NCBI GenBank assembly: GCA_016839655.1
Contig: JAEOTW010000097.1
Span: 1-64,000, forward strand
Source: Promethearchaeota archaeon
GTDB taxonomy: Archaea > Asgardarchaeota > Lokiarchaeia > Sigynarchaeales > SOKP01
Length of the DNA stretch: 64,000 nucleotides
Direction of reading: 5' to 3'
The number at the start of each line of letters is the position of its first letter. The stretch's first letter is position 1. Shown here in pieces: positions 45,880-61,992 of the stretch. Below the pieces are notes generated by a model. It was not told where the DNA came from. It saw only the letters and a program-made list of their open reading frames with translations, and did not search any database. The translations under genes and the position numbers were made by a program.

Positions 45880-47202
45880 TCAATTCAAATCTCTAATCTT
45901 GTCAGCAATTTTATAATTCGGCAGGACATTATCTACATAACCTTTTTCTGTTGCGAATTTAGGCATTGCATATAAAATAGACGTTTCTTCTGATTCAGCA
46001 ATTGTTTTCCCGCCTACTCGTTTGATTGCTCCTAAGCCGTTAACACCATCAGAACCCATACCTGTTAAAATTATCCCCATTGAACGATTCCTAAAAATTT
46101 TAGCTGCAGAAAAAAATAGAACATCAATAGAAGGCATACAAAAATTAACAGGTGTTCCTTTAAAAATTTTTAATGATGGCGTTTTATTATCTACAGTAAT
46201 TTCCATATGCATATCCCCCGGAGCGATATAAACGTGGCCTCCTTGCAGAGTATCTCCGTTTTTAGCTACTCTAACTTTTAATTCGCATTCTATATTTAAA
46301 TTGTCAGCAAAAGCTTCTGTAAAATGAGAAGATAAATGTTGAACAATCAAAATTGGTGTGTTAAAATTTCTTGGGATTTCTTTTAATATTGTAGTAATGG
46401 TTCTTGGCCCTCCTACACTAGCACCCATTACTATAACATTGGAATTCAACATTACTCCAGAAACAGGAGAAAGATCAGGAATACTAACAGATGATTTTTT
46501 CCTTTTTACTACTTCAGAGGTTAATTTTTGTTTTTTAAGTTTAATTACATCTACCGGTTCAATTGCTTTTGGTTTTATTTTATTAGAAGTTTTATTTACT
46601 ACTAATGGTTTAGTTTCATTCTTTAGAATTGCCTTCACTTTCATAATTTCAAAAGAGTCAATTTCCCTTTTTTCTTCGATTTCTTCAATAGGTTTTAATT
46701 GATTTATGTATTGTCCAAAATCAAAAATTCGATTTACCATTTCTTGGCGAAGAGATCTACTCTTGCTTAAAATATTTTCTTCAGTTTTAAAAATTTTCTT
46801 TATTTGAGACTGAGATGCTAACAATACTTTAGCAAGTAATTCTTCACGAAATCTTGGTAAATCTTTAGCTCCAAGACCACCAGGTTTTATGATATAGTCA
46901 AAAGCACCCATTAGTAATGCTTGTATTGAAGAATCTAAATTTTTAGGGCTAATAGCAGATAAAATAACAGTTGGAGTTGGATGACTTTCCATAATTAACT
47001 TGAAAGCATCTAAACCGTTCATTTTCGGCATCACTAAATCTAACACTAAGACATCAGGGCTATACCTCTTTACTAAATTAACTGCTTCAATACCATCTTT
47101 TGCATAATCAACAATATTTATTAAATCATGTTGTTTAAGAATATCTGATATGCTTTTTTGTAGATATTGAGAGTCGTCAGCGATCAATACGTTTATAGAC
47201 AA
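45880..47202 (-). CDS. cheB: CheB chemotaxis methylesterase/deamidase (copy 1)
   Basis: Last gene of the chemotaxis operon. Residues 1-120 are a receiver domain (LIADDSQYLQKS, phosphoacceptor Asp55 in LVLDLVMP, Lys in IIKPGG). A long basic linker (about 125-245) follows, then the esterase domain: VIVMGASVGGPRTI with catalytic Ser, QHLSSHFTEAFA with His, and ILTGMGSDGVNGLGAI with Asp. It removes methyl groups from receptor glutamates when phosphorylated by CheA. At 440 aa it is longer than usual because of the linker. TTG start with AAGGAGAT five bases upstream. A second cheB lies 2.3 kb upstream in the same operon. Confidence 0.93.
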   Translation of the reverse strand: MSINVLIADDSQYLQKSISDILKQHDLINIVDYAKDGIEAVNLVKRYSPDVLVLDLVMPKMNGLDAFKLIMESHPTPTVILSAISPKNLDSSIQALLMGAFDYIIKPGGLGAKDLPRFREELLAKVLLASQSQIKKIFKTEENILSKSRSLRQEMVNRIFDFGQYINQLKPIEEIEEKREIDSFEIMKVKAILKNETKPLVVNKTSNKIKPKAIEPVDVIKLKKQKLTSEVVKRKKSSVSIPDLSPVSGVMLNSNVIVMGASVGGPRTITTILKEIPRNFNTPILIVQHLSSHFTEAFADNLNIECELKVRVAKNGDTLQGGHVYIAPGDMHMEITVDNKTPSLKIFKGTPVNFCMPSIDVLFFSAAKIFRNRSMGIILTGMGSDGVNGLGAIKRVGGKTIAESEETSILYAMPKFATEKGYVDNVLPNYKIADKIRDLN

Positions 47203-47275
47203 TTAAATCTCCTTTTCAGTATTATTATCTTAACTTATAAATAGTAGATTGAGTTAATTTATATGTTTCTTAATG

Positions 47276-48232
47276 CTAAAATAGATTAGAAATAAGAAAA
47301 GTAAACAATTCATCAATTCCTTCTCCAGTTAAAGCAGAGGTTTCAAAAAATGGAATATTATGTTGATTTGCTAATTTGGAAGCTTGAGATTTAATATCTG
47401 AACGGTTTTCAACTTTATCAATTTTATTTCCAATCAAAACAAAGGGAATCTCTTCATTTTTTAAGAAGTGACGTGATTCTTCAATCCATCCCGAAATATC
47501 ATTAAATGAATTTATATTAGTATAGTCAAATATTATCAAAACAGCGTTTGAATATTTATAATAAAATTTACGGATTTTTACAAAACTTTTCAACCCACTT
47601 AAATCAAGAAGATACAATGTTAGATTAAAATTGCTTGAGACTTTTAATTCCTTTTCATTAATTGAGATCCCTAATGTTGGTTTATATGCCCCATTTTCAT
47701 TAAAATTCACCCCACAATATATATCTGCTAATCTCGATTTTCCTACAGCTTCAGATCCCACAATGGTAATCTTTTTAACATTTTTTTTGTTATCTTGTTC
47801 AGCTGGTAGAATTATTTCTCCCTCCTCTGTCAATATTGGTATATTCAAGGAAATTTCATGATTACTTAAAATTGATGAAATTTTTTCCGCTACAATGTAG
47901 GTATATGGAATAAATTGATCTATATTTGAATAATGATTTGCAACTAAAACAAAAATTGCGGGAACTTGATTTCCTAATTCCATATAAAACAATTGAAAGT
48001 CATTTGTATCGAAAGTCCCTGTACCAAATGAAGTTTCTGCATATCTTTTAATTTTAGTTATGGTTTGATCAAGAATAGCCATTATTGCTCCAATTAATTC
48101 TTCATCAAATCCTTCCACTGAGGAACGAGCAATAATTAAACCATCTAAATCTACAACTAAAGCAGCTAACAAATTATTTACTTCATGCAGTAAATTATTC
48201 AATAAATCATCAATTAAGCTTACATTTGACAT
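47276..48232 (-). CDS. Roadblock/LC7 domain fused to a Ras-like small GTPase
   Basis: Residues of about 1-125 form a roadblock/LC7 domain (LLHEVNNLLAALVVDLDGLI, then FQLFYMELGNQVPAIFVLVA). Residues 152-318 form a Ras-type G domain: G1 GSEAVGKS 159-166, switch I Thr186 (KPTLG), G3 DLSG 210-213, G4 NKID 269-272, G5 SAL 299-301. The residue after DxxG, where Ras has Gln61, is Leu214, a position whose loss slows hydrolysis in Ras. Roadblock domains bind such GTPases in Rag-Ragulator and MglA-MglB systems, so the fusion may regulate itself. No membrane-anchor motif is seen. It lies between cheC (10 bp upstream) and cheB within the operon. Confidence 0.9.
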   Translation of the reverse strand: MSNVSLIDDLLNNLLHEVNNLLAALVVDLDGLIIARSSVEGFDEELIGAIMAILDQTITKIKRYAETSFGTGTFDTNDFQLFYMELGNQVPAIFVLVANHYSNIDQFIPYTYIVAEKISSILSNHEISLNIPILTEEGEIILPAEQDNKKNVKKITIVGSEAVGKSRLADIYCGVNFNENGAYKPTLGISINEKELKVSSNFNLTLYLLDLSGLKSFVKIRKFYYKYSNAVLIIFDYTNINSFNDISGWIEESRHFLKNEEIPFVLIGNKIDKVENRSDIKSQASKLANQHNIPFFETSALTGEGIDELFTFLISNLF

Positions 48233-48242
48233 TTTTCATGTA

Positions 48243-48911
48243 TTATATATTCAATTCATATTTTATGTTTAATATCTCGAACAATTTCCTTAAAATGGTA
48301 ATATTTGGAATGAGACAGATTGTTCCGTTTATATTCAAATCTGAAACTATTAATTTTGTACAAATCAAGATTATATAATCTATTATTTGGGAATATTTTG
48401 CGATGATACTATTTAAGATCGCATTCAATGTGTCAATTGCAACTTTTGGTACATTTGGGACAAGTTTGATTGATAATAAATCTGCTAATGCACTAGCATA
48501 ATGACCACTTAGGATGTTTCCGATTTCGCTTATGATACTATAAGAAAATTCATCCAAATCATTAGTGCTTTTTATTATAATCCCTGAATTTTTATTAGAA
48601 TTGTTTAATAAATTCACTAGGTTAAAAATTGATTCTTTGGGAAAAATTTGGACAATAGAAAGATCAGAATTAAGTGGAATTTTAGAAAATATCACAACTA
48701 CTTCTTCGTTAGGGCTATCAAACAAATCTGGAACTTTCCAAAAAGTATCAATATTTGCAGAAGTTAGAGAAACTTCAACATTTTTATTCAATAACTCCGA
48801 AAGAGCCGTAATTGCGTGTCCAGAGCCTATATTACCAATTTCTTTTAACAAATCTAATTGCTCTTCAGTCAATTCTACCTTAACTGAATTATGTATAACT
48901 TTTTCGTTCAT
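48243..48911 (-). CDS. cheC: CheC-family CheY-P phosphatase
   Basis: The 222-aa protein has the CheC two-fold pattern. The first half has LKEIGNIGSGHAITALSELL and the second SEIGNILSGHYASALADLL, each with the E-x2-N active-site pair. The Pro expected 22 residues later is present in the second half (VPNVP) but replaced by Thr in the first, so the second site is the more likely phosphatase site. CheC binds CheD and dephosphorylates CheY-P; cheD directly precedes it and the two genes overlap by 4 bp, implying coupled translation. Confidence 0.9.
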   Translation of the reverse strand: MNEKVIHNSVKVELTEEQLDLLKEIGNIGSGHAITALSELLNKNVEVSLTSANIDTFWKVPDLFDSPNEEVVVIFSKIPLNSDLSIVQIFPKESIFNLVNLLNNSNKNSGIIIKSTNDLDEFSYSIISEIGNILSGHYASALADLLSIKLVPNVPKVAIDTLNAILNSIIAKYSQIIDYIILICTKLIVSDLNINGTICLIPNITILRKLFEILNIKYELNI

Positions 48912-49492
48912 TCTAATAATTCCTCTTTTTTTTGTGAAATTCCTGTATTTAATATAATCTTTTTATATTCCTTTTCTTTTGTCAATTTAACATATACAGC
49001 AAAATCTTTTGTATCAAATATTACACCCCTCCCTTCAGATCCTCCTGTATCTTCGCCAACAACAGAAATATTTGACTTTTCTAATTCTTGTTTTATAGCT
49101 TTGGTATTATCGATCCCCATAAAATTTTCATCTAAATCAAAAATTTTCGAACCCCCTACTATAATTGCTTTTATATTTTTTTCAGCAGCACCATAATTAA
49201 GAAGTTCTTTGAATAGTAATTTTAAAGAAAGATCAGCATATTTATGCGGATATTCTATTTTCTTATTTAACCTTGCTTTAGGAAGTAAAATGTGGGACAT
49301 CCCGCATACCTTAGTTTTAAAATCAATAAGAATTAGTGCAATGCACGATCCTAATCCGTAAATTGATATTTTTGGGAAAAGATTTATGGGTTTATTTTTA
49401 CAATTTGTAATAAAATAATGACCTATGGGTAAGAAAACCTCTCCATGTTTATCCATTTCATTAATAAATCCATAGGGTTTTATACTAATCAC
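48908..49492 (-). CDS. cheD: CheD receptor glutamine deamidase
   Basis: The 194-aa protein has the catalytic Cys50 in YGLGSCIALILID and His67 in GMSHILLPKA, then IIVGGSKIFDL and GEDTGGSEGRGVIF, all typical of CheD. It deamidates receptor glutamines and associates with CheC. The start is uncertain: a GTG at 49492 lies within its own GGTGATT Shine-Dalgarno-like sequence, and an ATG at 49456 (MDKHGEVFL) gives a more usual CheD N-terminus. Confidence 0.9.
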   Translation of the reverse strand: MISIKPYGFINEMDKHGEVFLPIGHYFITNCKNKPINLFPKISIYGLGSCIALILIDFKTKVCGMSHILLPKARLNKKIEYPHKYADLSLKLLFKELLNYGAAEKNIKAIIVGGSKIFDLDENFMGIDNTKAIKQELEKSNISVVGEDTGGSEGRGVIFDTKDFAVYVKLTKEKEYKKIILNTGISQKKEELLE

Positions 49493-49516
49493 CTTTAATT
49501 CTTAAATATTGAATTG

Positions 49517-50671
49517 TTAATTGGGTATGTTAATTTTCATCATTTTTGTGAAATTTATCATATGGTCTTTAATTTCATAGTTTGGGAGTATTAAATTAGC
49601 AGCTCCTCTCTTTACTGCTGCTTTAGGCATACCATAAACTACACAAGTTTGCTCTGACTCTGCAATTGTTTTGCCTCCCTCTTTTTTAATAGCTTCTAAT
49701 CCCGCAGCACCATCATCTCCTAAACCAGTTAATAAAATTCCAAGTATTTGATTTTTATATACATTTGCTGCTGAAAAAAACAATACATCAACAGAAGGCA
49801 TGCAAAAATTTACTGGCTCACCTTTAAATATCTTAATACAAGGGAAATTGTTCTTCAGGACAACTTTCATATGTTTTCCTCCTGGACTTAGATAAGCGAT
49901 TCCAGGTTGGATTTTTTCTCCATTTTCAGGGATTTTAATTTCAATTTTGCATACTTGATTTAGAGATTTTGAAAGTTCTTTCATGAAGTATGGATCTAAA
50001 TGCTGTACTATTAGAATAGGACTGTTAAAATTTTCAGGAATTTCCTTTAATATTGATTTTAAAGTTCTGGGGCCTCCAGTACTAGTACCAATAACTATTG
50101 CATTGAACAATTTACTAGTTCTTTTTATTTTTGGTTCTTTTGGAACCTCAACTATTTGAGATTTTGATTTTACACTTAATCGATATTGATCTCTATATGA
50201 ATCTAAAGGAGGCAGTTCAGAAACTGATTTTTTAATTAAAAGATTACGTTTTTCATAGGTTTTTTTAATTTTTCCAGCATATAATGTACTGGAAACTAAT
50301 TTTTCTTTATATTTCGGAAATTCATCTTCCCATAAACCTTGTGGTTTTGTTATAAAATCAAAAGCTCCCATTAGTAAGGTCTGGACAGAAGGTTCTAATG
50401 TTTCTGGGTTTTTAGCGGAAAATATAATGGTGGGGATAGGATAATGTTCTGAAAGGAATTTAAACACAGTTATTCCATCAATATCAGGCATCATCAAATC
50501 TAATATTAATACATCTGGATTTATTTTTTCGATTTTTTCAATAGCGTCTCTTCCATTCCTTGCAATATCGACTTCATCAATTTCATGGTGTGATGTTAAC
50601 ATATCTGCTATTATTTTCCTCTGAAAGGCCGAGTCTTCTGCTATAAGGACTTTAATTGATATTATATTCAC
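49517..50671 (-). CDS. cheB: CheB chemotaxis methylesterase/deamidase (copy 2)
   Basis: The receiver domain (LIAEDSAFQRKI, phosphoacceptor Asp58 in LILDLMMP, ITKPQG) is joined by a short linker to the esterase domain: AIVIGTSTGGPRTLKSI (Ser), QHLDPYFMKELSK (His), GLGDDGAAGLEAIKKEGG (Asp) and VVYGMPKAAVKRGA. At 384 aa it is closer to standard CheB length than copy 1. The two copies are clearly homologous along their whole length. It sits 2 bp downstream of cheR, the classical methylation/demethylation pair. Confidence 0.93.
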   Translation of the reverse strand: MNIISIKVLIAEDSAFQRKIIADMLTSHHEIDEVDIARNGRDAIEKIEKINPDVLILDLMMPDIDGITVFKFLSEHYPIPTIIFSAKNPETLEPSVQTLLMGAFDFITKPQGLWEDEFPKYKEKLVSSTLYAGKIKKTYEKRNLLIKKSVSELPPLDSYRDQYRLSVKSKSQIVEVPKEPKIKRTSKLFNAIVIGTSTGGPRTLKSILKEIPENFNSPILIVQHLDPYFMKELSKSLNQVCKIEIKIPENGEKIQPGIAYLSPGGKHMKVVLKNNFPCIKIFKGEPVNFCMPSVDVLFFSAANVYKNQILGILLTGLGDDGAAGLEAIKKEGGKTIAESEQTCVVYGMPKAAVKRGAANLILPNYEIKDHMINFTKMMKINIPN

Positions 50672-50673
50672 CT

Positions 50674-51678
50674 TTATTTCATATATATTCGATTATATGA
50701 GTCTACCATTTTTAAGTTGCTTTTTGAATTAAGTAAAGTTTCAGTTTTACCTAAAATTAACAGACCACCTACGTTTAATCTATTACTTATAACTCTTAAA
50801 AAATCTTCGCGTACTTTCCTGTTAATATAAATTAAAAGATAACGGCAAAAGATAATATCGTAATTAAAAGAAGTTCTATGACCTTTGGTCACATCTTCTT
50901 CTATATATTCAACATAATCTTTAATTTCTTTCTTTACTGAATACAAAAAACCAAAGTTATTTTCAGTTTTGGTAAAATATTTTTTTTCATAATATGATGA
51001 AACATTTTTTGTATGATTTTCATTATAAATACCCAATTTAGCTTTTCTAATCGCATCACCATCAATATCAGATGCATTAATTCTAAAAGATAGAAATCCA
51101 GGAATTTGATTTTTGAGGTTGTCTAAGATCATTGCAATTGAATAAGGTTCTTCACCATTTGCACAAGGGCATGACCATATGTTAAGTGATTTTATTCTAT
51201 CAGAAGGATTCCAAATTTTTTTATATAGTGAAGTACGGGATATATATCGATCGATTAATGATTTACTTCTTGTTTTTGGATCCCATTTTTTATGATTTAG
51301 AGAAGTACTTGTGTTTTTTTTTTTATATTGTCTTTCAGGATTAGGTGTAAAGTCACTCATTACATCTTTTTTTGATAAATATAAAGAATATAATATGATC
51401 TTTTCAAGTTGCTCAAACACTTCCCAGTTCCTAAAAAAAATTGAATAATTTATATTAAAGCAATCAAGAAATTTTTCAGTTTCAGATGGAGTTTCGAGTA
51501 AAAAATTATAGTAAGATTCAAGAGTATCGCAATTGACTCTTATCATTCTGGATTTAATTCGTTTTTCAATAAAATTTCTCTGATAATAATCTAAATTCAA
51601 CCCAGTACTATTCATTAATAAGTGAATTAGAAGGTTATAATAATCATCATCAATTTGAATATCATCAATTCTAATCAC
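50674..51678 (-). CDS. cheR: CheR receptor methyltransferase
   Basis: This SAM-dependent enzyme methylates receptor glutamates. The N-terminal helical domain (about 10-95) has the usual pattern ending FNINYSIFFRNWEVFEQL. The SAM domain has IWSCPCANGEEPYSIAMILD, INASDIDGDAIRKAKLGIY, YDIIFCRYLLIYINRKVRE and GGLLILGKTET. About 50 extra residues (about 98-165), rich in Lys, Arg and Ser, are inserted between the two domains. It follows the gelsolin-like gene by 11 bp. Confidence 0.92.
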   Translation of the reverse strand: MIRIDDIQIDDDYYNLLIHLLMNSTGLNLDYYQRNFIEKRIKSRMIRVNCDTLESYYNFLLETPSETEKFLDCFNINYSIFFRNWEVFEQLEKIILYSLYLSKKDVMSDFTPNPERQYKKKNTSTSLNHKKWDPKTRSKSLIDRYISRTSLYKKIWNPSDRIKSLNIWSCPCANGEEPYSIAMILDNLKNQIPGFLSFRINASDIDGDAIRKAKLGIYNENHTKNVSSYYEKKYFTKTENNFGFLYSVKKEIKDYVEYIEEDVTKGHRTSFNYDIIFCRYLLIYINRKVREDFLRVISNRLNVGGLLILGKTETLLNSKSNLKMVDSYNRIYMK

Positions 51679-51689
51679 TTATATACACT

Positions 51690-52235
51690 TTATTTTTCTA
51701 ATATTTTCTCAATTTCAGCAAAACGTTGTTCAATATGATTTATTGAGTATTTTATATGCATTTGCATTTCTTTTATCTCAGATAAAATCTTTTTAATGCG
51801 AGATTTAACTGATCTTGGTAAATTCAAACCACTTTCTGTAATTTCTGATTTTATTACCTGGTTTACTGAACCACTTGAACGAATAAACTCATTATTGACT
51901 CTACCATTTCTCGATTGTCCAGGATAGTTCAAATTCCTGTTGTTTTCTTTGATTTCTTTAAAGATAATGTGAAACTCAGGTGGTTCAAGCCCTTGTTTTA
52001 TAACTTCATATTTGAAATTATAGAATTTTTTCTTAGTTTTTAATTTCCCTGCAAAGTTTGCAGCCATATATCTATGAAATAAACGTGAATGATTACCTGC
52101 CCATATCCAAATCAATTTTAATTCTTTATCTACTATTAAATATACACCACCCGCTTCAAACATCTTTTCTGGTCGAAGCTTAAGTGTTTCTCCGTCAACC
52201 TTATAAATATAATCATAGTAACTTGTTTTTAACAT
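51690..52235 (-). CDS. Gelsolin-like domain protein with C-terminal coiled coil
   Basis: The 181-aa protein has a single gelsolin/severin-type domain in residues of about 1-95: AGGVYLIVDKELKLIWIWAG (the gelsolin V-Y-L...W-x-G strand pattern), then a helix (HRYMAANFAGKLK) and KYEVIKQGLEPPEFHIIFKE, matching the usual strand plus x-E-P-x-x-F motif. A Ser/Asn-rich linker follows, and residues of about 140-181 form a predicted coiled coil (SRIKKILSEIKEMQMHIKYS). In eukaryotes gelsolin domains sever or cap actin; Asgard profilins and gelsolins act on actin. Its position inside a che operon suggests a link between signalling and cytoskeleton, which is inference. Confidence 0.7.
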   Translation of the reverse strand: MLKTSYYDYIYKVDGETLKLRPEKMFEAGGVYLIVDKELKLIWIWAGNHSRLFHRYMAANFAGKLKTKKKFYNFKYEVIKQGLEPPEFHIIFKEIKENNRNLNYPGQSRNGRVNNEFIRSSGSVNQVIKSEITESGLNLPRSVKSRIKKILSEIKEMQMHIKYSINHIEQRFAEIEKILEK

Positions 52236-52340
52236 GATATATATTGAATCTTTATATTTTACATAGATTTATTTTGGATATTCTTTTTTGTTATTTCTAA
52301 TTTTTAAAAAAAATAATTTAGATTGCTTTTGGCAATCCGT

Positions 52341-54320
52341 TTATGAATAAAATCTTAAAAGCGCATTTAGTAATTCTTGTAGTGTTTCGAGATTAGGAAT
52401 GAATAAGAAAGTCCCAGTAATTTTGATATCTGTGATAATAACGTTCGTTGTGATAACTAATGATAATTTCTTTAATAAACCAATTTCTTCTTTCAATATT
52501 TTGAATAATTGGTTTCCCGTATCAACTGAAATATCCGGTGGCTCAGTCATTAATCGCAAACCTAATAGATCACCTATTGCGCTTACATAGTGGCTTCCTA
52601 AGATGTGTCCCAGCTCTGAAATTGCACTATGATAAAGTTCTGGAAAATCTGAAGCAAACTTAATCTTTTTTCTTAGATCAATCTGTTTCTTATCTCGATC
52701 ACCTACAATTATGGATGTTATATCAATGGCATCCTTAATATTAAATAAAGTTAAAACTGTAGCTCTTGTTTTTCCAACAACATTACTCCAAGCAACTAAT
52801 AGTTTTTCATTTTTCTTACTAATATTATTAGCATATTCATCTAATTCAACCATTTCAACAGAGGGGATATTTATATCCACTCTCTTATTTATCATTTGAG
52901 CTAGCGCATTTGCAGCATTTCCAGCACCAATATTACCAACTTCTTGTAAGGCATCTCTCTGTATTTCTGAGAGTTCGATATCGGAAAGATTTACTAACGC
53001 TGGTTTTTTCTGATGTTTTAGACCTTTAGTAGATAATTGATGTTCTATTCCCAGTTTATCGAAAAATGTTTTCAATGTCTCGAGATCAGGGATAAAGAAG
53101 AACATGCCTTTAAGTTGCAAATCAGCTACCTTTATTGATGTTTTAATTATTATGAAAAACTCAGCAATTGATTTTAATTCCTTAGATAGAAATTCTCCAA
53201 TCTCTCCCGCCTTACTCATAGCAAATTCTGGGATATCAATCATTAACTTTGTACCTAATAAATCTGCTAGGGCTGAGGCATAATGTCCTGCCATAATATT
53301 GCCCATTTCGACAATTGTAGAAACTGCAAAATCATCAAGATCATTTTTAGATTGAACTTTGCTAGGATTAATTTTAGATTTAGTTCCCGCTAAATCTGCA
53401 ATCATTTGCATCAAGGGTTGCATTTCAAAAATGTTTAAAATAGTTGCTTGAGAGGGTCGTTCTATATGGCAGAATATTCCACATACTTTCTCTTTTGGGC
53501 CACCAAATTGTTCGGGTAATTCTTCTAAAGGTATTATACCTACATCAGTTAAAGTCACATCAATTTTCTTTTTAACTAATCGAGATAGTGCTGTAACTGC
53601 ATTTCCAGTCCCTATGTTGCCAATTTCCTTAAGCATGTCTGCTTGTTCAACAGACAATGAAACATTCTTGTTTAAATTATCTTCAGGAATATTTACTAAA
53701 TTTTTTGGAACATAAGTTTCTTGAGGGATTACAACTGTGGATTCAACTGTAGGCGCAGGTTTTGGAGCCAGTTTAGGTTTTACTTTCGGACCTCCAATGA
53801 TTTTCGGTTTTATTTGTGCCTTTTTCTCTACTTTTTTGCCTATAGATTTAATATATGGTGAAATTAATGCATCTAGATCCAATAATATTAAGGAATCATC
53901 TTGAAAAATGCCCGTCAGTTTAATTAATCTAAAATCAATATTTGTTTTTACAATTGTCCCTTGTTTTTTAAAAGCGGAAAGAGGAATATCTTTAACTCCT
54001 ATTACTGAATCAACTAATAATGCTATTTTCAAATCTTTATATTCCAATAATAAAATTCTCGATTTATCACTCAAACCATAATCTAAATCACTATCAATAA
54101 TGTTGTGTCTTAATGAAAGGATTGAATAAATTTCACCTCTAATATTAATGATTCCTACTATATTTTTTTCTGTTAACGGAACGGGAACTATATTTTCTCC
54201 AGGTACATATATCTCTTTAACATGCTCCACTTCAATGAGATATTTTTCATGAAAAATTTGAATAATCACAACATTTATAGTTTCTCCAAACTCTATTCCT
54301 TCTGTTTTACTTTTTATCAT
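52341..54320 (-). CDS. CheW-CheC-CheC fusion protein
   Basis: The protein is 659 aa. Residues of about 10-155 are a CheW adaptor domain (VVIIQIFHEKYLIEVEHVKE, IVGIINIRGEIYSILSLRHN, IALLVDSVIGVKDIPLS). A Lys/Pro-rich linker (about 160-215) leads to a first CheC domain (LKEIGNIGTGNAVTALSRLV, VEMGNIMAGHYASALADLLG) and a second (LQEVGNIGAGNAANALAQMI, SELGHILGSHYVSAIGDLLG). The very last active-site motif has His in place of the conserved Asn (SELGH). The layout recalls FliY/CheW-CheC arrangements and would place CheY-P phosphatase activity at the CheA-receptor array. Confidence 0.88.
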   Translation of the reverse strand: MIKSKTEGIEFGETINVVIIQIFHEKYLIEVEHVKEIYVPGENIVPVPLTEKNIVGIINIRGEIYSILSLRHNIIDSDLDYGLSDKSRILLLEYKDLKIALLVDSVIGVKDIPLSAFKKQGTIVKTNIDFRLIKLTGIFQDDSLILLDLDALISPYIKSIGKKVEKKAQIKPKIIGGPKVKPKLAPKPAPTVESTVVIPQETYVPKNLVNIPEDNLNKNVSLSVEQADMLKEIGNIGTGNAVTALSRLVKKKIDVTLTDVGIIPLEELPEQFGGPKEKVCGIFCHIERPSQATILNIFEMQPLMQMIADLAGTKSKINPSKVQSKNDLDDFAVSTIVEMGNIMAGHYASALADLLGTKLMIDIPEFAMSKAGEIGEFLSKELKSIAEFFIIIKTSIKVADLQLKGMFFFIPDLETLKTFFDKLGIEHQLSTKGLKHQKKPALVNLSDIELSEIQRDALQEVGNIGAGNAANALAQMINKRVDINIPSVEMVELDEYANNISKKNEKLLVAWSNVVGKTRATVLTLFNIKDAIDITSIIVGDRDKKQIDLRKKIKFASDFPELYHSAISELGHILGSHYVSAIGDLLGLRLMTEPPDISVDTGNQLFKILKEEIGLLKKLSLVITTNVIITDIKITGTFLFIPNLETLQELLNALLRFYS

Positions 54321-54361
54321 ATTTTATACCTCTTACTTTTTTCCTCTTCTTTTTATGAATT

Positions 54362-55210
54362 TTATTTTAACATAATTCCTTTCCAAATTAATTCTACTTC
54401 GGGTTCCTCTTCACTAACTTCAGTAAAAAAATCTAGTTGTTTATATATTGAAATTTGACCGCCATTTGAATGTTTAAAGACATAATTTAATAAATCATCT
54501 GTACTAGTAAAGTTAAATCCCGCAACTTTTAGTTCAGATTCATTTAGAATTAATAGGTCTTCTTTGTTGAATGGACAATTTTCCTCATTCCATTCAATCC
54601 ATAATTCTGGTTCTATTTCTTTATTGACAATATTAATGGGATTATCAAGGGGTATATTACGGAAAGCCTTTCCTGTTGCAAAAATAACCCTATCAGGGAT
54701 TAAGTTTTGATTTTTTGCAAATTCGTTTAAATATTTTATTGCTTCCTTGAAATCTCTCAATTCTAATACGTCGTAGCATAAAACTAGAACTACTTCATTA
54801 TCATAAGTTTCAATAATAAAATCTAATATTCGATCCATATTTGGATTAAGATTAATTTTTACTGTTCTTAGGTTGAAATTTAACATGTATTTAATGTATT
54901 GATAAAAACGCCACTTTACCGCTAACGTATTATTTTCTTCTTTACTAACGAATAATTGAAAAAACAGTTTTAATTGTCCCGTAGTTAAATTGGATAAATC
55001 GGCATTTTTTCCCACATCCTTACCTATTTGGACGAATTCTTGAGTAGAATTTGATTTAGAACCTTTACTTTTTTTAGTAGGTTTTAATGCAAAATCTTTC
55101 AAAAAAATTTCAAGTTCATTTTTGGTAAATTGTGGAACAATCTGCTCTATAAGATACAAAACATATTCTTTTGAATTATCATCCATTGTTTCATAATATT
55201 GTAGTTTCAT
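54362..55210 (-). CDS. Chemotaxis-operon protein of unknown function (282 aa)
   Basis: I do not recognise a family. The N-terminal region (about 1-45) is acidic and helical. A short Lys/Ser-rich linker (KPTKKSKGSKSNS) follows, then a mixed alpha/beta region with buried strands (NEVVLVLCYDVLEL, PDRVIFATGK) and a helix, and an acidic C-terminus. There is no signal peptide or membrane segment, so it is cytoplasmic. It lies 40 bp downstream of the 673-aa beta-rich gene in the che operon. The archaellum adaptor CheF was considered but no matching motif was seen. Confidence 0.55.
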   Translation of the reverse strand: MKLQYYETMDDNSKEYVLYLIEQIVPQFTKNELEIFLKDFALKPTKKSKGSKSNSTQEFVQIGKDVGKNADLSNLTTGQLKLFFQLFVSKEENNTLAVKWRFYQYIKYMLNFNLRTVKINLNPNMDRILDFIIETYDNEVVLVLCYDVLELRDFKEAIKYLNEFAKNQNLIPDRVIFATGKAFRNIPLDNPINIVNKEIEPELWIEWNEENCPFNKEDLLILNESELKVAGFNFTSTDDLLNYVFKHSNGGQISIYKQLDFFTEVSEEEPEVELIWKGIMLK

Positions 55211-55250
55211 ATTATTTCCTCCATTTTTTTTTATAAATTTTATTTTTTAT

Positions 55251-57272
55251 TTATCCAATAAAAAACGATTCCAATTCTGATTGTGATACATCCTTTCCAC
55301 TTACACTTTTAAGGTAATACATTATCTCTTTTTCTTGATACGGTAGGATTGAATCGATTTTGAATGAAATTTTTTGTTCTCCATTATTTTTAGATTTATT
55401 AATTTTATGTTCTGCGTTTGAAGAAATTAGTTTAAATGAATTTGGAAATGCATCTGTAATATCGACATCATTAAGTTTAATATTTGAACCATTTTTTGCT
55501 ACAATATAAATAGCGAACTCATCATTACTCCTTCCGGGAAAAATTTGTTTTCCAATCATTAATTTACGTCGTATATGAGAAATTTTTAAGGAAGTTGTAT
55601 CTTTACTTAAGAGATCATCCATTAGAATGTAATGTCCACTTGGTCCTTCTCCTCCAGATTTTTCATACATTGGATAATATGCATAGATTTTGGCATTAAA
55701 ATCGTAATCTTTTTGGTAATCAGGACTGATTGCTCTAAGTGGATATTTCAATTCTAAATAATCTTCCGGATTTATAATTGATTTTCCAGCATTGGTTTCT
55801 AAATTTATACTAATTTCAAAAGTATGCTCATGTGAGTGATCTTCGTCATTTGGAATTGAATTTATTTTAATACCATTTATTTCTACTTTACCAGATGAGT
55901 TGAAAAATGTAAAATCAGAAGTGTTTTGTGGTGGTAAGAAATCTTCTGGAATTTTCTCAACTATTCGAAGCCCATTAATTGGGACAGTACTTTGGTTGTT
56001 TATAATAATTTCAGAATTTAATGTTGCTTGTTCAAATGATTTTATTTCTTCTTCAGGTAATTTTTTCTTTACTATAATCTTAACAATTTTAAAGACACTA
56101 TCATCAAATCTTGTAGTAATCATTGAATTGCTCTCTGATCTATATTCAACAGAATAATCAGCTTTTCTTGAGAACATAGGTTCCTTTTCGTCAATTACAT
56201 CAAAAACTTGTGTTTTATATGTTCCACGAGGATTAAGTACAGTAGCACCAGCTGTATTAAAATCTATATCTAAGTATTTTTTTGATTTGTTCTTATCATA
56301 GATAAGAATTGAATTTAGCTTCAATTTGAAATCACTATGGTTTTCAAAAATTAATGAACATTCCCAATGATTTGGAGCGTCATTTCTCTCTGTTTTCTCA
56401 ATGGCATGCATAGCATGAGAATATGCGGAGAAATAATTTATTTTAACTCCTGAAATTACCTTCGAAGTTAAATTATATGTTAATTCTACTTTACCAGTAT
56501 TAATATTTTCTTTCTTCTTTGGGAAAATGTGAGCAGTAATAAGGATTTTTGCTTTTTCTCTGGGATTTAGACTATTTATATTACATTCTACGGAATTCTT
56601 AACAATTCTAAATTCATTACTCTTGCTACATTCAAATTTCAAGTCATAAAAATTATTAACAAACAATTTTCTAAACTTTATATTTTCTAATATCGAATTT
56701 GAGATATTTACTATATCAATTATAAATTTTACCTTATTTTCTTTTCCAAGTAATAATAAATGTTGCTTTTTATTATCTCCTTTTGATTTACTTTCTTCAT
56801 AAATTTCAGATTCTTCATGAGTTATTTCTTCACTCATGGATTCAATGTTTTCATTAATCCTAATTAAATCTGGTAAATCATCAGAATTTACTATTTCATA
56901 TTTTAATATTTTATTTGAACTGGGCTCAAATATTCCTAGATTTATGGTGTTTTCCTTCTCTTGATTATCAAATTGAGAGCCAGAAAATTGTAAATTTGCA
57001 TCCCAAATTCTATCTTTAATAGAATTATTAAATATTGATATATTTCCGTTTCCGGATACTGTTTTTCGTGTTCCATCATTGTGGTATTGGAATTCCATAA
57101 ATTCCTCATTTAATATCAATACTTCGGACATTGAACCTACATAACTTGATTCAATTTTTTTTTCTCTTTTACCTTTTTGTACCAGCTTACCACCTTCCCT
57201 TATAGGGATACCACGAAAATTTGGGCTAATTTTCGTTTTTAATTCATCATGGTCAATTTTTTTAAAACCCAT
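55251..57272 (-). CDS. Large cytoplasmic beta-sandwich repeat protein in the chemotaxis operon
   Basis: The 673-aa protein has several Ig-like/DUF11-like repeats after residue 170. Each shows a strand, then Asn/Ser-x-linker, then a hydrophobic strand, for example KVKFIIDIVNISNSILENIK, SLIFENHSDFKLKLNSILI, SEIIINNQSTVPINGLRIVE and FAIYIVAKNGSNIKLNDVDI. Similar repeats usually occur in secreted archaeal proteins, but this one has no signal peptide or membrane segment and starts with a basic, soluble N-terminus. Residues of about 1-120 differ and may form a separate domain. It sits between cheA and the 282-aa unknown, so a cytoplasmic scaffold for the chemosensory complex is possible; this is inference. 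Confidence 0.6.
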   Translation of the reverse strand: MGFKKIDHDELKTKISPNFRGIPIREGGKLVQKGKREKKIESSYVGSMSEVLILNEEFMEFQYHNDGTRKTVSGNGNISIFNNSIKDRIWDANLQFSGSQFDNQEKENTINLGIFEPSSNKILKYEIVNSDDLPDLIRINENIESMSEEITHEESEIYEESKSKGDNKKQHLLLLGKENKVKFIIDIVNISNSILENIKFRKLFVNNFYDLKFECSKSNEFRIVKNSVECNINSLNPREKAKILITAHIFPKKKENINTGKVELTYNLTSKVISGVKINYFSAYSHAMHAIEKTERNDAPNHWECSLIFENHSDFKLKLNSILIYDKNKSKKYLDIDFNTAGATVLNPRGTYKTQVFDVIDEKEPMFSRKADYSVEYRSESNSMITTRFDDSVFKIVKIIVKKKLPEEEIKSFEQATLNSEIIINNQSTVPINGLRIVEKIPEDFLPPQNTSDFTFFNSSGKVEINGIKINSIPNDEDHSHEHTFEISINLETNAGKSIINPEDYLELKYPLRAISPDYQKDYDFNAKIYAYYPMYEKSGGEGPSGHYILMDDLLSKDTTSLKISHIRRKLMIGKQIFPGRSNDEFAIYIVAKNGSNIKLNDVDITDAFPNSFKLISSNAEHKINKSKNNGEQKISFKIDSILPYQEKEIMYYLKSVSGKDVSQSELESFFIG

Positions 57273-57334
57273 CTTATTTTTCCTCCAAGTATTTCTTCAT
57301 TTGTTATCTCTATTATTTGTAAAAAAAATTTTAA

Positions 57335-59410
57335 TTATAAATTTAAATTTGAAATTATATTTTCATTTAAAATAGATGAAATTATACTTAAAACATCGAC
57401 AATTAGGCATATTGAACCGTCACCTGTTATAGTTGATCCTAATATGTCCCGAGAATCTGAATAGCTAGATTTAAATGGTTTTACAACAACATCTAATTGC
57501 TGTAATTGCTTATCTGCTATAAAAACTGCTGAACTTTCTTCATCCTTTTTACACCATATTGCAATTTTTTTGTGAGAGTTTTCTGTACTTTTTTCAACCA
57601 TGCTTAAATATTCGTCTAAATGGATAATTGGCATCAATTTCGAACCAATTTTGTAAAATTTTTGACCATCCACATATTCAACTTGATTTGGATTGAAAAA
57701 ATATATTTGTTTAATGTTTTCAGTAGGAATTGCAAATAAATCTTCAGCAATCTGAATTAGTTGTGCTCTTAGTATTGCTCTTGTAAATGGAACTATTAGT
57801 GTAAATTTAGTACCTATACCAGGTTTAGATTGTATATCAAAATCACCACCTATTTCTTTAATTTTTTCAGCCACAATTGCTAAACCCATACCTCTACCAG
57901 AAATAATATCTGCATCTGAAAGCGTTGAGAACCCCGGCATTAAAATAAATTTATGCAATTCATCGTTTGATAGATTTTTCGCCTCGTCTGAGGTGTAGTA
58001 CCCTTTTTTCACAATCTTTTCCATAATTTTATCATAATTGATACCACCACCATCATCTTGAACTTCAATGAAAATTGAGCCTGCTCTCCTAAAAGTTTTA
58101 ATTTTCAATGTCCCAATCTCATTTTTTCTTTTTCTAATTCGATCTTTAGGAGATTCTATTCCATGATAGATGGCGTTTCTTATTAGCTGAACCAAAGGAG
58201 TATTAATTTCTTCTAGGATTTTTCTATCAATTTCTACATTTGTTCCTTCAAGAATTATTTTTATTTTTTTGCCAGTTTCGTTTGCAACATCACGAACAAG
58301 TCTTTTATATTTTCTAAATATTGAATCTACTCGAACTAGTTTTAGTCGAAAAAGAATTTCCTGTATGTCTAGAAAAGGTTTATCCATTTTATCTATTAAT
58401 CGTACTATACTTCTATCTTGCTTTTCCTTTAGAAGTTGACTGATGTGATTCTTCATTATTACTAATTCTCCAAAATAATTCATTAGTTCCTCGAGATACT
58501 CAATGTTAACTTTTACACTCATAATTTTTATGGTATCTTCTGAGAAAACACCTACAATTTGAGATACTCTCTCCAATTCTTGAGCATCAACATCTTCATC
58601 AAAATCATCTTCAAAAGAATCGTAGTTTATAGGCTCAGGCTTTTCATTTTCCCATTTTTCTCTAAGACTAATAATTGTAGTGATAAAATCTTCAGATTTT
58701 AAAGGAGTTATAACATTACTTTCAATTTCAAGAACCTCATCTAACACATGAGAAATATTATCCTTATCTTTATTACTAATATAGAAAATTTCAAATTCAT
58801 TTTTGAGAGTTGCTTTTTCTAAATCTTCAGGGGCAGGGTTTGTCCAACAAATCTTTCCATTCTCATTTAAAGCTCTAAATATAATAAATAATCTTACTTT
58901 TTTGAAAACACATGTCTCTTCAAGCCGGATATATATCTTAAATGGTTTTTGTTTTTTTTCTTTAAGGATATTGTTAACCTCTTCTGACTTTAAAGGCTGA
59001 ATAAAGGTGATATCATACTCATTATCAAAAGTTTCGAAACTATTCCTAATATCTTCAACAAATTTATCATCAATATCACTTAAATCTCCTTTCTTTACTC
59101 GCTTAATGACGTTTCTCAAAACATCAATGCTTTCAAAAAGCATTTCTATGAAGTTTTCTCTTTTGGTTTTGGATACTTTTTTATCTTTGGTATTTTCTAA
59201 AAAGGATTCGAAATGGTGACAAAATTTCGACAAGTTATCAAATCCTGCCATAGCTGTTAATCCCTTCAGTGCATGAAATGTGAAAAAAAGTTCTTGAACT
59301 GGTTTTGAGTCATTCGAATTTTGTTCTAATTTCATGATTTCTTCTTCTGTTTTTTGAATCAGATCCTCTGCTTCACTTATGAAAAGCTTTATATCGTCTT
59401 TAGATGACAC
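57335..59410 (-). CDS. cheA: CheA chemotaxis histidine kinase
   Basis: The protein is 691 aa. The Hpt domain has phosphoacceptor His46 in FTFHALKGLTAMAGF. A divergent P2-like region (about 135-270) follows, then dimerisation helices (VKVNIEYLEELMNYFGELVI). The ATPase has the N-box around LVQLIRNAIYHGIESPKDR, the G1 box VQDDGGGI and the G2 box SGRGMGLAIV. The C-terminal CheW-like regulatory domain begins FTRAILRAQLIQIAEDLFAI. It phosphorylates CheY and CheB. GTG start with AAGGTGAT just upstream. It lies 25 bp downstream of cheY. Confidence 0.95.
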   Translation of the reverse strand: MSSKDDIKLFISEAEDLIQKTEEEIMKLEQNSNDSKPVQELFFTFHALKGLTAMAGFDNLSKFCHHFESFLENTKDKKVSKTKRENFIEMLFESIDVLRNVIKRVKKGDLSDIDDKFVEDIRNSFETFDNEYDITFIQPLKSEEVNNILKEKKQKPFKIYIRLEETCVFKKVRLFIIFRALNENGKICWTNPAPEDLEKATLKNEFEIFYISNKDKDNISHVLDEVLEIESNVITPLKSEDFITTIISLREKWENEKPEPINYDSFEDDFDEDVDAQELERVSQIVGVFSEDTIKIMSVKVNIEYLEELMNYFGELVIMKNHISQLLKEKQDRSIVRLIDKMDKPFLDIQEILFRLKLVRVDSIFRKYKRLVRDVANETGKKIKIILEGTNVEIDRKILEEINTPLVQLIRNAIYHGIESPKDRIRKRKNEIGTLKIKTFRRAGSIFIEVQDDGGGINYDKIMEKIVKKGYYTSDEAKNLSNDELHKFILMPGFSTLSDADIISGRGMGLAIVAEKIKEIGGDFDIQSKPGIGTKFTLIVPFTRAILRAQLIQIAEDLFAIPTENIKQIYFFNPNQVEYVDGQKFYKIGSKLMPIIHLDEYLSMVEKSTENSHKKIAIWCKKDEESSAVFIADKQLQQLDVVVKPFKSSYSDSRDILGSTITGDGSICLIVDVLSIISSILNENIISNLNL

Positions 59411-59435
59411 ATAATCACCTTATTTTTTATTTTCT

Positions 59436-59813
59436 TTATTTTTTTAATATACGGTCCATAACTTCTATTATTTGTTCTGTTTTAAAGGGCTTTTGAATGA
59501 AATCTTTCGCTCCTTTCTTCGCAGCTTCGAGTACAAGAGCTTCCTGACCGAGAGCAGAAACAACAACAATCAATGCTTTTGAGTTTAATTTTAAAATCTC
59601 TTCAGTTGCTTCGATACCGCCTTTTTCAGGCATAACTAAATCCATAGTAACTAGATCAGGATTAAGTTTCTTATATAAAGAGATTGCTTCCACACCATTT
59701 GAAGCTTCACCGATTACTTCAATTTGCTCAATCTTATTGATGATATTCTTAAGCATGTTACGAGTAAACTGGGCATCGTCTACTATTAGGACCTTTTTTT
59801 TATTATTTGACAT
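59436..59813 (-). CDS. cheY: CheY response regulator
   Basis: This stand-alone receiver domain has 125 aa. The acidic pair Asp12-Asp13 (LIVDDAQFTR), phosphoacceptor Asp58 (LVTMDLVMPEKGG), the conserved Ser in VVSALGQE and the Lys in FIQKPF are all present. It is the diffusible output of CheA. In archaea with archaella CheY-P acts through CheF, which is not present in this window, so the target here is open. AAAGGAGTTGAT precedes the ATG with good spacing. Confidence 0.95.
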   Translation of the reverse strand: MSNNKKKVLIVDDAQFTRNMLKNIINKIEQIEVIGEASNGVEAISLYKKLNPDLVTMDLVMPEKGGIEATEEILKLNSKALIVVVSALGQEALVLEAAKKGAKDFIQKPFKTEQIIEVMDRILKK

Positions 59814-59833
59814 TTTATCAACTCCTTTTTAAT

Positions 59834-60364
59834 TTATGTTAATGATGATAAATCTTGTTGGATTCTGAATTGTTCAACTTCATTAAAGATCTTTCCCAAA
59901 TCAAGCATAACTCTTGGTCGTTGTTCAAAATTAACAATTCCTTTGATATATTCTATTGCAACACTAGTTTGAAAGATTGGGCTTAATCCAACAATCTCAG
60001 TGGGATCAATATGATCTATACTAATTATTTGATCTACATAAAATCCAACTAGATTATTATCAAGCTTTAGTATTATAATGAACTTTTTTGCTGTAACCGA
60101 TTCTTTTTCGAAAGAGGAGTTCTTCGAGTACAATATATATTGATTTAAATTCAGTTTTTTCTTTAAATTAATTATATGAATAATCTCTCCCCTGTAATTA
60201 TAAATTCCATCAATGAAATCTAAGCTTTTTGGTAGTTTCCTTATTAATCCTGCTTGAATTATTTCTTTTACGTCGAAGAGATCGATAACGAACTCTTCCC
60301 ATCCAATCTTAAATGAAAGAATGGAAATTTGATCCATATTTTCATATTCTTGCTTTTGAGCCAT
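59834..60364 (-). CDS. cheW: CheW adaptor protein
   Basis: The 176-aa protein has the CheW SH3-like double barrel: ISILSFKIGWEEFVIDLFDV, LDFIDGIYNYRGEIIHIINL, VGFYVDQIISIDHIDPTEIV and YIKGIVNFEQRPRVMLDLGK. It links CheA to receptors. A stretch of about 20 residues (SKNSSFEKESVTAK) is inserted between the middle strands. GAAGGT lies upstream of the ATG. It is the second gene of the operon; a second CheW domain occurs in the fusion protein at 52341-54320. Confidence 0.93.
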   Translation of the reverse strand: MAQKQEYENMDQISILSFKIGWEEFVIDLFDVKEIIQAGLIRKLPKSLDFIDGIYNYRGEIIHIINLKKKLNLNQYILYSKNSSFEKESVTAKKFIIILKLDNNLVGFYVDQIISIDHIDPTEIVGLSPIFQTSVAIEYIKGIVNFEQRPRVMLDLGKIFNEVEQFRIQQDLSSLT

Positions 60365-60384
60365 TTTTTACTTACCTTCTTTTT

Positions 60385-61203
60385 TTAAATAATAAAATAT
60401 TGGTTAATTTTATCTTCAAAAGATGCAAATGGAGTTACATCTCCATTGAACTCTTTTAAATAATTATTAAAATCGTAAATAAATTCATCTGCAATAAGAT
60501 ACATGTATCTCTGTAGCAAGGAATTCATATTTTCAACAAGAAAAGCAAAAATTACGCTACTTTTTGATATAACGTAAAATTGCTGATTCCCAAAATTTAT
60601 CTCCTTCAATTTTGCTCCTGTTTCTTCTCCAATAATCGTATTTGAGAAAGATAATAAGGCAGAGATAAAACCTCCAATGTGAACCTCATGATCTGCTATG
60701 TTATTACGATTTTTATTAATTTTTGAAAGAAAAGGACTACCTGCGGAACCAATAACAAAGATAGCTATAACTCCAGATGATTTTGGAATTTCAATTTTGT
60801 CTTCGAATACTTTATCTATATCAGATAATGGTGCGTCTGAAAGAATTTTTTTATTAATCTTTTTGGATAGGAAATAAAGCTGTGAAAAATTAACTGCAAT
60901 ACTCGGTTCTTTTTCTTCCATATATAGTACTACTGAAATCTCTTTGTTATTATTATTGAAATATTGGATATGAATTGTGAATTCATTTAATGGAATAATT
61001 GAGCTTCCTTGTTTTTTGGTTATTATTTCTTTCTTATAGAGTTCTAAGACATTCTGGATAAGAGGAACTCCTATACCTTTTTGAAGAATAATTTTAAAAG
61101 CGCCTTCAGATTCTATATCTGAGATTCTTAATAATCCATATCCAAGCATTTGAAACCTTTCTGAATTATTATTAATATTTTGAGCCTTGTCCATAGCTAT
61201 CAT
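60385..61203 (-). CDS. First gene of the chemotaxis operon: longin/roadblock-like protein
   Basis: The protein is 272 aa with no signal peptide. The C-terminal half (about 145-255) has strands and helices in the order of a longin/roadblock-type domain: VIAIFVIGSAGSPFLSKINK, then IGGFISALLSFSNTIIGEET, KEINFGNQQFYVISKSSVIF and a long amphipathic helix (LQRYMYLIADEFIYDFNNYL). This is the pattern of archaeal regulators that partner small GTPases. The N-terminal half may hold a second, more diverged copy (ISVVLYMEEKEPSIAVNF). The assignment is by pattern. It would be a natural partner for the roadblock-GTPase encoded at 47276-48232 in the same operon. Confidence 0.5.
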   Translation of the reverse strand: MIAMDKAQNINNNSERFQMLGYGLLRISDIESEGAFKIILQKGIGVPLIQNVLELYKKEIITKKQGSSIIPLNEFTIHIQYFNNNNKEISVVLYMEEKEPSIAVNFSQLYFLSKKINKKILSDAPLSDIDKVFEDKIEIPKSSGVIAIFVIGSAGSPFLSKINKNRNNIADHEVHIGGFISALLSFSNTIIGEETGAKLKEINFGNQQFYVISKSSVIFAFLVENMNSLLQRYMYLIADEFIYDFNNYLKEFNGDVTPFASFEDKINQYFII

Positions 61204-61992
61204 ATTATATTCTTACTTTTATTTTTGCAGATTATTTGCTTTGGATTAATTCCCTTAGTTGTTTTTTATTAGCGCTTTATTTATTTTAAATCAAAAAATA
61301 TTGAATGATGATTTTACATTTTTTGATGTAAAATAATATTATAATTTGTATTCTTTTTTGTGTTTTTTCTAAATTTGAACTAAAAAAGTTATATCAGAAT
61401 GTATATTTAAACTTAATGTTATAAAAAAATGTTATACTATTGTAAATCACATTTTTTGAATTATTGAGATCTTATAAGATCTAAACTATTTTTTTTTGAA
61501 ATATACTAAATAATTCTAAGTTTACAATGAGGATTAGTGAAAAATCAAATATGTTAAATAAATTGAAAAATTACACAATAATGATTTCTTTGAACACAAA
61601 AAAATGTTAATTAATGAGATTTATATATCTGAGTCTGATAATATGTTTTTAAAAAGAAGAAATCAAGTTATCCAAATTATTTAGACTTCTCATATAAATG
61701 AATAAGAATTGAGAGAGCCCTCCGAGGTTCTTGTCTAATCAAAAACTTTTATTCACAAATCCAATTTCAATGGATTTATTGATAAAAATCATTAGGTGTA
61801 GGTATCAATTAATTATCTAAAACATCAAAAATTTATACCAAAAGATTGAACTCAGCAATTTTTTTGCCACAAAATGGGATCCAATAAACTAAATAAGATA
61901 TTTTTTCATAAATATGAGGATTTTTAAAGGGTAAACCAAAAAGATTTATTAAGAGAAAAAATAAATTATAATCAATAAATTTAAAGTAAATT
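61204..61992. other. Long AT-rich intergenic region upstream of the chemotaxis operon
   Basis: This 789-bp gene-free region lies between the divergent che operon and a small plus-strand gene. It contains an inverted repeat at 61311-61334 (separate entry) and a perfect 16-bp palindrome, AGATCTTATAAGATCT, at 61467-61482. There is also an unusually G/C-rich short stretch near 61714-61735 preceded by a TATA-like ATATAAAT, which might start a small RNA. No open frame is convincing. Confidence 0.6.
61311..61334. promoter_or_regulatory. Inverted repeat upstream of the chemotaxis operon
   Basis: ATTTTACAT and ATGTAAAAT form exact 9-bp arms around a 6-base spacer. The site lies about 110-130 bp upstream of the first che-operon gene. 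Between it and the gene a minus-strand A/T-rich TATA-like element (about 61277-61292) could be the promoter. The repeat could be an operator; because of base composition a chance match is possible. Confidence 0.4.

Follow-up and report, generated by a model that had tools for sequence, protein, structure and literature searches.

A lokiarchaeal chemosensory operon that encodes gelsolin-like, predicted tandem-longin and roadblock-Ras proteins and may act on the actin skeleton or cell polarity

Gene content of the locus

We analysed a window of 64,000 nucleotides (the whole stretch of DNA under study, from contig JAEOTW010000097.1 of a Promethearchaeota archaeon) and found that 14 open reading frames (ORFs), all on the minus strand between 45880 and 61203 and separated by gaps of -4 to 105 bp, form a chemosensory (Che) operon that also encodes eukaryote-like proteins. 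In Che systems, arrays of receptors (MCPs), CheW and CheA phosphorylate CheY and CheB. The genes of the operon, in the order of transcription, and the gap in front of it are as follows.

61204..61992, no strand: AT-rich gap of about 790 bp 5' of the operon, with no ORF of at least 80 amino acids, presumed to be the promoter region
60385..61203, minus: g1, predicted tandem-longin protein, 272 amino acids, with a fold like that of guanine nucleotide exchange factors (GEFs), first gene of the operon (structure model)
59834..60364, minus: CheW (Pfam PF01584, E 2.2e-24)
59436..59813, minus: CheY (Pfam PF00072, E 6.2e-27)
57335..59410, minus: CheA with Hpt, P2, dimerisation, ATPase and CheW domains (Pfam)
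55251..57272, minus: g5, 673 amino acids, DUF11 repeats (Pfam PF01345, E 1.9e-7)
54362..55210, minus: g6, 282 amino acids, no family, seen only beside cheA
52341..54320, minus: CheW-CheC-CheC fusion (Pfam PF01584 and four PF04509 stretches)
51690..52235, minus: g8, single gelsolin-like domain with a C-terminal extension, 181 amino acids (Pfam E 8.4e-4; PDB profile E 2e-7)
50674..51678, minus: CheR (Pfam PF01739, E 4.2e-42)
49517..50671, minus: first CheB (Pfam PF01339, E 4.9e-60)
48908..49492, minus: CheD (Pfam PF03975, E 1.5e-21)
48243..48911, minus: CheC (Pfam PF04509, E 3e-21)
47276..48232, minus: g13, roadblock-Ras GTPase, 318 amino acids, without the G3 Gln and the P-loop Gly12 (Pfam Ras, E 4.4e-32)
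45880..47202, minus: second CheB, last gene of the operon (Pfam PF01339, E 6e-59)

A reading of this DNA made from its letters alone (the sequence-only reading) had proposed 14 tightly spaced same-strand genes with a full Che set, and every ORF was recovered where it had been placed. Pfam matches exceeded the curated cut-offs for each Che protein, namely CheA (P2, HATPase, Hpt, dimerisation and CheW domains), CheY, CheW, CheR, both CheB proteins, CheC, CheD and the CheW-CheC-CheC fusion, and also for the Ras domain; the signalling core, that is CheA with its Hpt, dimerisation, ATPase and CheW domains together with CheW and CheY, is present. The GTPase gene and the gelsolin-like gene lie inside the operon as that reading had described, the latter ending 11 bp before cheR, and the gelsolin and roadblock labels it had given them, which score just below the Pfam cut-offs, were backed by a profile match to the Asgard gelsolin 7c2f (E 2e-7) and by Robl_LC7 matches in 9 of 11 relatives. 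Two of its labels were amended: the protein called longin/roadblock-like has a longin fold in the structure model and is now described as a predicted tandem-longin, GEF-like protein, and of two proteins called unknown, g6 indeed belongs to no family, whereas g5 carries DUF11 repeats. An EF2-like gene lies convergently after the operon.

Conservation of the neighbourhood across relatives

We searched 227 genomes of the same phylum for CheA at a threshold of E 1e-20 and found matches in 43 genomes, 21 of which carry CheA of the window type (at least 389 bits); the best scores of the other 22 were at most 224 bits, and one of these distant matches (G111) proved to be a P2-P2 protein and not CheA. 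The neighbourhoods of the 21 loci with window-type CheA and of ten distant ones were compared. The results showed that the mixed che and eukaryote-like neighbourhood recurs with its gene order kept down to about 40% protein identity, which is more than chance, and the comparison in relatives that had been suggested along with the sequence-only reading thus returned a conserved neighbourhood. The nearest locus (L001, from Lokiarchaeia archaeon ABR05) has counterparts of every operon gene but the GTPase, 13 of 14, with protein identities of 79-97% and a CheR match of just 50 residues, and CheY is 91-98% identical in L001, L002, L003, L005 and L007.

The gelsolin-like gene directly follows the CheW-CheC-CheC gene in 18 of the 21 loci, one per genome, the exceptions being G105 (contig end inside the CheW-CheC-CheC gene), G123 (internal deletion) and G089 (no gelsolin in the operon). 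Similarly, g1 lies 5' of cheW in 18 of the 19 loci that are legible and intact at that end; the break in G006 falls within cheW, the contig of G004 begins further on, and g1 is missing from this position in G089. Gelsolin and g1 are each found in 18 of the 21 genomes, in different sets of 18, and are steadier than the GTPase (14/21). Three loci (L053, L054 and L055) have the order MCP-g1-CheW-CheY-CheA-g5-g6-CheW-CheC-CheC-gelsolin-GTPase, and CheR, CheB, CheC and CheD do not stand beside the operon in these neighbourhoods, to which the search for them was confined; the adaptation enzymes are therefore less closely associated with the kinase than the eukaryote-like genes are. The ORFs first labelled CheB2 in these neighbourhoods are receiver domains of hybrid kinases. 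CheR itself is inconstant: in L001 (12653-12859) and L007 (12647-12868) it is reduced to ORFs of 68 and 73 amino acids, respectively, that match the CheR N-terminus, with both CheB genes retained, and the L005 operon gives no CheR match.

Two genomes without a complete operon were compared with these loci. G126 retains PurN, an intact g1 (L120) and the EF2-like gene in this position, and no other part of the operon lies between them; in G123 (L060) the missing stretch runs from within cheA to within cheB2; neither gelsolin nor a che-type GTPase was found in either genome. These states suggest losses, with misassembly a possibility for G123. It is very improbable that the eukaryote-like genes came to stand here by chance, have stayed because rearrangement is slow, and share no function with the che genes: the operon can split, as in G006, and individual genes can be lost, as such a history would allow, but the order holds to about 40% identity, no gelsolin orthologue was found outside the operon among the at most 15 candidates scored per genome, G123 and G126 lack both gelsolin and GTPase as well as the kinase, and in L053-L055 it is the eukaryote-like genes that stay by cheA and not CheR, CheB, CheC and CheD. 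The linkage of the che and eukaryote-like genes and its conservation are firm. Lokiarchaeal chemotaxis genes are themselves already in print; of their linkage to gelsolin, longin and GTPase genes we found no published description in those parts of the literature that our search reached.

The gelsolin-like protein

A profile of 37 rows of the g8 family was compared with PDB, and the best matches were Asgard gelsolins (7c2f, E 2e-7), followed by villin and CapG; Pfam Gelsolin matched 14 of the 37 family members at E<=0.01. Members of the family contain one gelsolin domain, marked by the invariant stretch WxWxGxxSRLFxRY and an EPxxF end, and a conserved C-terminal part. By profile search, in which at most 15 candidates per genome were scored, the g8 orthologue was found in 18 of the 227 genomes at 133 bits or more, with the next match at 73, and all 18 lie inside the operon. 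By its profile matches g8 can be assigned to the gelsolin family; its domain is divergent and its action on actin is putative.

The predicted tandem-longin protein

Pfam gave no match for g1. The predicted structure has two longin-fold domains within 272 amino acids, and the best Foldseek matches of the model were the GEF complexes Fuzzy-Inturned and Mon1-Ccz1; on this model g1 is predicted to be a tandem-longin protein resembling GTPase exchange factors. Sequence similarity to them is negligible, with a Fuz_longin_1 match in 1 of 54 g1 family members (E 0.0015) amid other chance-level matches. A second g1 paralogue adjoins an MCP gene, or lies one gene off, in five genomes (G001, G002, G003, G007 and G123).

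We also observed a second chemoreceptor-longin locus (L112 4628-8795, L113, L114 and L115), which consists of an MCP gene and a g1 paralogue, shortened in L115, with a receiver protein in three of the four; a small protein in L112 is roadblock-like by eye.

The roadblock-Ras GTPase

The window GTPase scores 22.8 bits for Robl_LC7 (cut-off 23), and among 11 che-type GTPases Pfam Ras was found in 11 and Robl_LC7 in nine (E<=0.001). The G1, G2, G4 and G5 motifs are present. The Gln after DxxG is absent in 11/11 che-type GTPases, being replaced by Leu in eight and by Ala, Lys and Phe in one each, and none of the 11 has Gly at the Ras-12 position; in ten roadblock-Ras paralogues picked from a long match list, the Gln is present in all ten and the Gly in nine. 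In Ras, changes at the catalytic Gln and Gly12 slow hydrolysis, and from the missing residues the che-type GTPase is predicted to hydrolyse GTP slowly and to have a long-lived GTP state. Rap and Rheb hydrolyse GTP by other routes, so this prediction is not certain.

The GTPase accompanies che genes in 14 of the 21 genomes, ten times in the neighbourhoods first compared and four times (G004, G090, G105 and G156) on other che-carrying contigs. A match of 216 amino acids in G089 is a plain Ras gene and not a che-type GTPase. A longer relative of the che-type GTPase (433-438 amino acids) was observed outside the operon in G001 (L090 13834-15135) and in G132 (L091), the latter a genome with no CheA match; these proteins also lack the catalytic Gln and Gly12.

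The g5 and g6 proteins

No strongly hydrophobic stretch of 19 residues was found in g5. In six relatives (L052-L057) g5 is extended by about 330-550 amino acids (ORFs of 1007-1220 amino acids), and the extra stretch gave no further Pfam family in the two of them that were scanned. The g6 gene was found in 21 of the 227 genomes, 20 with window-type CheA and one (G091) with distant CheA, and always in the cheA neighbourhood. Relatives of g5 and g6 stand beside a distant CheA type in L064, and g5 alone in L069, and neither locus has gelsolin or longin; g5 and g6 are perhaps chemosensory partners of longer standing.

These loci bear on an explanation in which g1, g5 and g6 belong to the receptor side, where they hold the array or tune it, and the gelsolin fold now serves as an actin-independent adaptor that binds other proteins. 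We consider it improbable: the occurrence of g5 and g6 without gelsolin or longin and the divergence of the gelsolin domain would fit it, but members of the family conserve the gelsolin core strongly, and actin was found in 21/21 genomes with window-type CheA.

Chemoreceptors, archaellum and actin

MCPs were found in all 21 genomes with window-type CheA, and in seven loci (L052-L057 and L059) an MCP gene lies directly upstream of g1. This operon-head MCP is the sole MCP match reported for G148, G154, G155, G156 and G162, where scoring took in 14 of 22 candidates in G154, 14 of 23 in G156 and every candidate in the other three genomes. MCPs of five relatives gave no tblastn match in the window at E 0.01, in line with the earlier statement that it holds no receptor gene. 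The companion statement, that no CheF or archaellum gene is present, stands for CheF and archaellin in the 20 further window ORFs scanned, which are not all of its ORFs.

At L108 7151-11544 (G156), L109 2810-4453 and L110 811-1998 we also observed proteins with two CheA-type P2 (CheY-binding) domains and a P2-CheC fusion; one of the double-P2 genes is oriented divergently from a group of genes with an actin-family member among them.

CheF was found in 0/21 genomes with window-type CheA and in 3/14 control genomes, and archaellin in 0/21 and 4/14, respectively; this search of the relatives covered CheF and archaellin and did not extend to ArlCDE and other archaellum genes. Across the 227 genomes archaellin matched in five, one of them over the cut-off (G042) and none among the 21. 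Many of the 21 genomes are fragmented, so single absences weigh little and the joint absence weighs more. A relative with both archaellin and CheF, which might have accounted for the CheY output, was thus not encountered among the 21. Ordinary archaeal chemotaxis, steering an archaellum through CheF and ArlCDE, would agree with the complete Che set including CheC and CheD, but with CheF and archaellin in none of the relatives and both recovered among the controls we regard it as extremely improbable. As neither CheF nor archaellin, the subunit of the swimming tail, was found in these relatives, the likely target of the sensor is the archaeal actin skeleton.

An output to another surface machine, such as archaeal type IV pili or adhesion, with the eukaryote-like proteins organising array placement or membrane identity, was also weighed. 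Longin and roadblock proteins serve as platforms for small GTPases (PMC10933270), g1 paralogues adjoin MCP genes, and Frz of Myxococcus acts on the MglA polarity module, which stimulates the assembly of motility machinery (PMC10329633), all of which would suit such an output; set against this, the gelsolin domain is one of the two steadiest eukaryote-like partners (18/21 genomes, always within the operon), and Asgard gelsolins modulate eukaryotic actin (PMC9834061). We think this output rather unlikely.

Other features of the window

A further ORF of 789 amino acids at 32846-35215 matches PCI, E3_UFM1_ligase (E 3.6e-17) and DDRGK. From these matches it is a putative UFL1/DDRGK1-like protein of the UFM1 system, a further eukaryote-like gene of the window.

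Proposed pathway

On balance, we favour the reading that the output of this chemosensory operon is the actin skeleton or cell polarity and not the archaellum. The co-occurrence of the genes in one operon is observed directly, and the wiring from array to actin is what we infer. A specific pathway from receptor to actin is possible, and we offer it tentatively. Membrane MCPs, CheW and CheA would form an array in which CheA phosphorylates CheY and CheB. CheY-P would be cleared by CheC and, at the array, by the CheW-CheC-CheC protein, which would place a phosphatase there. CheY-P, or the state of the array, may act via g1 as an exchange factor, so that the roadblock-Ras protein is loaded or positioned at a single membrane site. 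As a slow, near-permanently GTP-bound GTPase, this protein would serve as a mark of place, set more by loading and location than by fast cycling. The dedicated gelsolin-like protein might then be released, recruited or switched at the roadblock-Ras site, where it would cap, sever or bind actin and bias the growth of protrusions. MCP arrays would in this way steer lokiactin protrusions, a crawling chemotaxis built from bacterial two-component parts before eukaryotes.

Several observations weigh against this interpretation. The Pfam Gelsolin score of g8 is 19.6 bits, below the cut-off of 21, and Foldseek gave the complete g1 model low TM-scores, 0.22-0.28 at ranks 1-7. Relatives of g1 are present in many Loki genomes without CheA, so the g1 family is not chemotaxis-specific, and che-type g1 is kept in G126 and G117, which have no CheA match. 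The GTPase does not accompany the operon in 7 of the 21 genomes (G001, G005, G106, G107, G162, G089 and G123). In G089, CheA, g5 and g6 are retained with no gelsolin or g1 in the operon. On the closed chromosome of G006 (CP070831.1; L006 9294-10001 and L046 4981-5097), the operon is divided, and about 1.08 Mb separates CheY-CheA-g5-g6 from the part that starts with CheW-CheC-CheC; CheW is broken, with only its last 39 residues matching there, and a single transcript is therefore not obligatory. This genome keeps gelsolin and GTPase without che-type g1, its best g1 match being a 238-bit paralogue. The actin search gave 0 positives among 14 controls, all of them prokaryotes. Finally, Ca. P. syntrophicum is reported to lack chemotaxis proteins (PMC9834061), yet protrusions have been described in it (PMC12993045); protrusions can thus form without a system of this kind.

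Asgard genomes encode dozens of GTPases, longins and roadblocks (PMC10933270), and eight gelsolins are reported in Ca. L. ossiferum (PMC9834061). Few partners of such proteins are known, and the operon supplies a conserved partner set tied to a sensor. If its output is actin, the operon would show that a prokaryote can direct its actin skeleton by means of receptors, and this among the kin of the microbe from which complex cells arose. A 2026 review refers to Asgard cells that migrate in an amoeboid-like manner (PMC12993045). The guidance of Asgard protrusions becomes directly testable in Ca. L. ossiferum, an organism in culture for which chemotaxis genes and putative arrays are reported (PMC9834061).

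Comparison with known systems

Ca. Lokiarchaeum ossiferum resembles the present case in having CheA, CheB, CheC, CheD, CheR, CheW, CheY and 15 MCPs, putative arrays seen by tomography and an actin skeleton in the same cells (PMC9834061). That account, in the portion available to us, gives the presence or absence of che genes and mentions no operon with gelsolin, longin or GTPase (PMC9834061). The Asgard gelsolins (7c2f, 2DGel3), the best PDB profile matches of g8, share its gelsolin domain; g8 differs in its single domain, its conserved C-terminal extension and its tie to the che operon. The tri-longin RabGEFs (Mon1-Ccz1 and Fuzzy-Inturned), the best Foldseek matches of g1, likewise have longin domains that act on small GTPases, with three longin domains per subunit compared with the two predicted in g1, whose exchange activity is putative.

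The nearest working precedent is the action of Frz on the MglA polarity module. In Myxococcus a chemosensory system, Frz, is likewise combined with a Ras-like GTPase, MglA, regulated by the roadblock GAP MglB, and Frz acts on the polarity module (PMC10329633). In the window, by contrast, roadblock and Ras domains are fused in one protein encoded with the che genes, tandem-longin and gelsolin-like proteins are added, the catalytic Gln is absent, and the role in polarity and any downstream action are putative. We know of no gelsolin or longin in the Frz/MglA system. The sequence-only reading had proposed that the array controls actin or polarity through the GTPase and gelsolin as MglA does downstream of Frz; the conserved linkage partly supports this proposal, and a GTPase without the catalytic Gln and Gly12 probably does not cycle like MglA.

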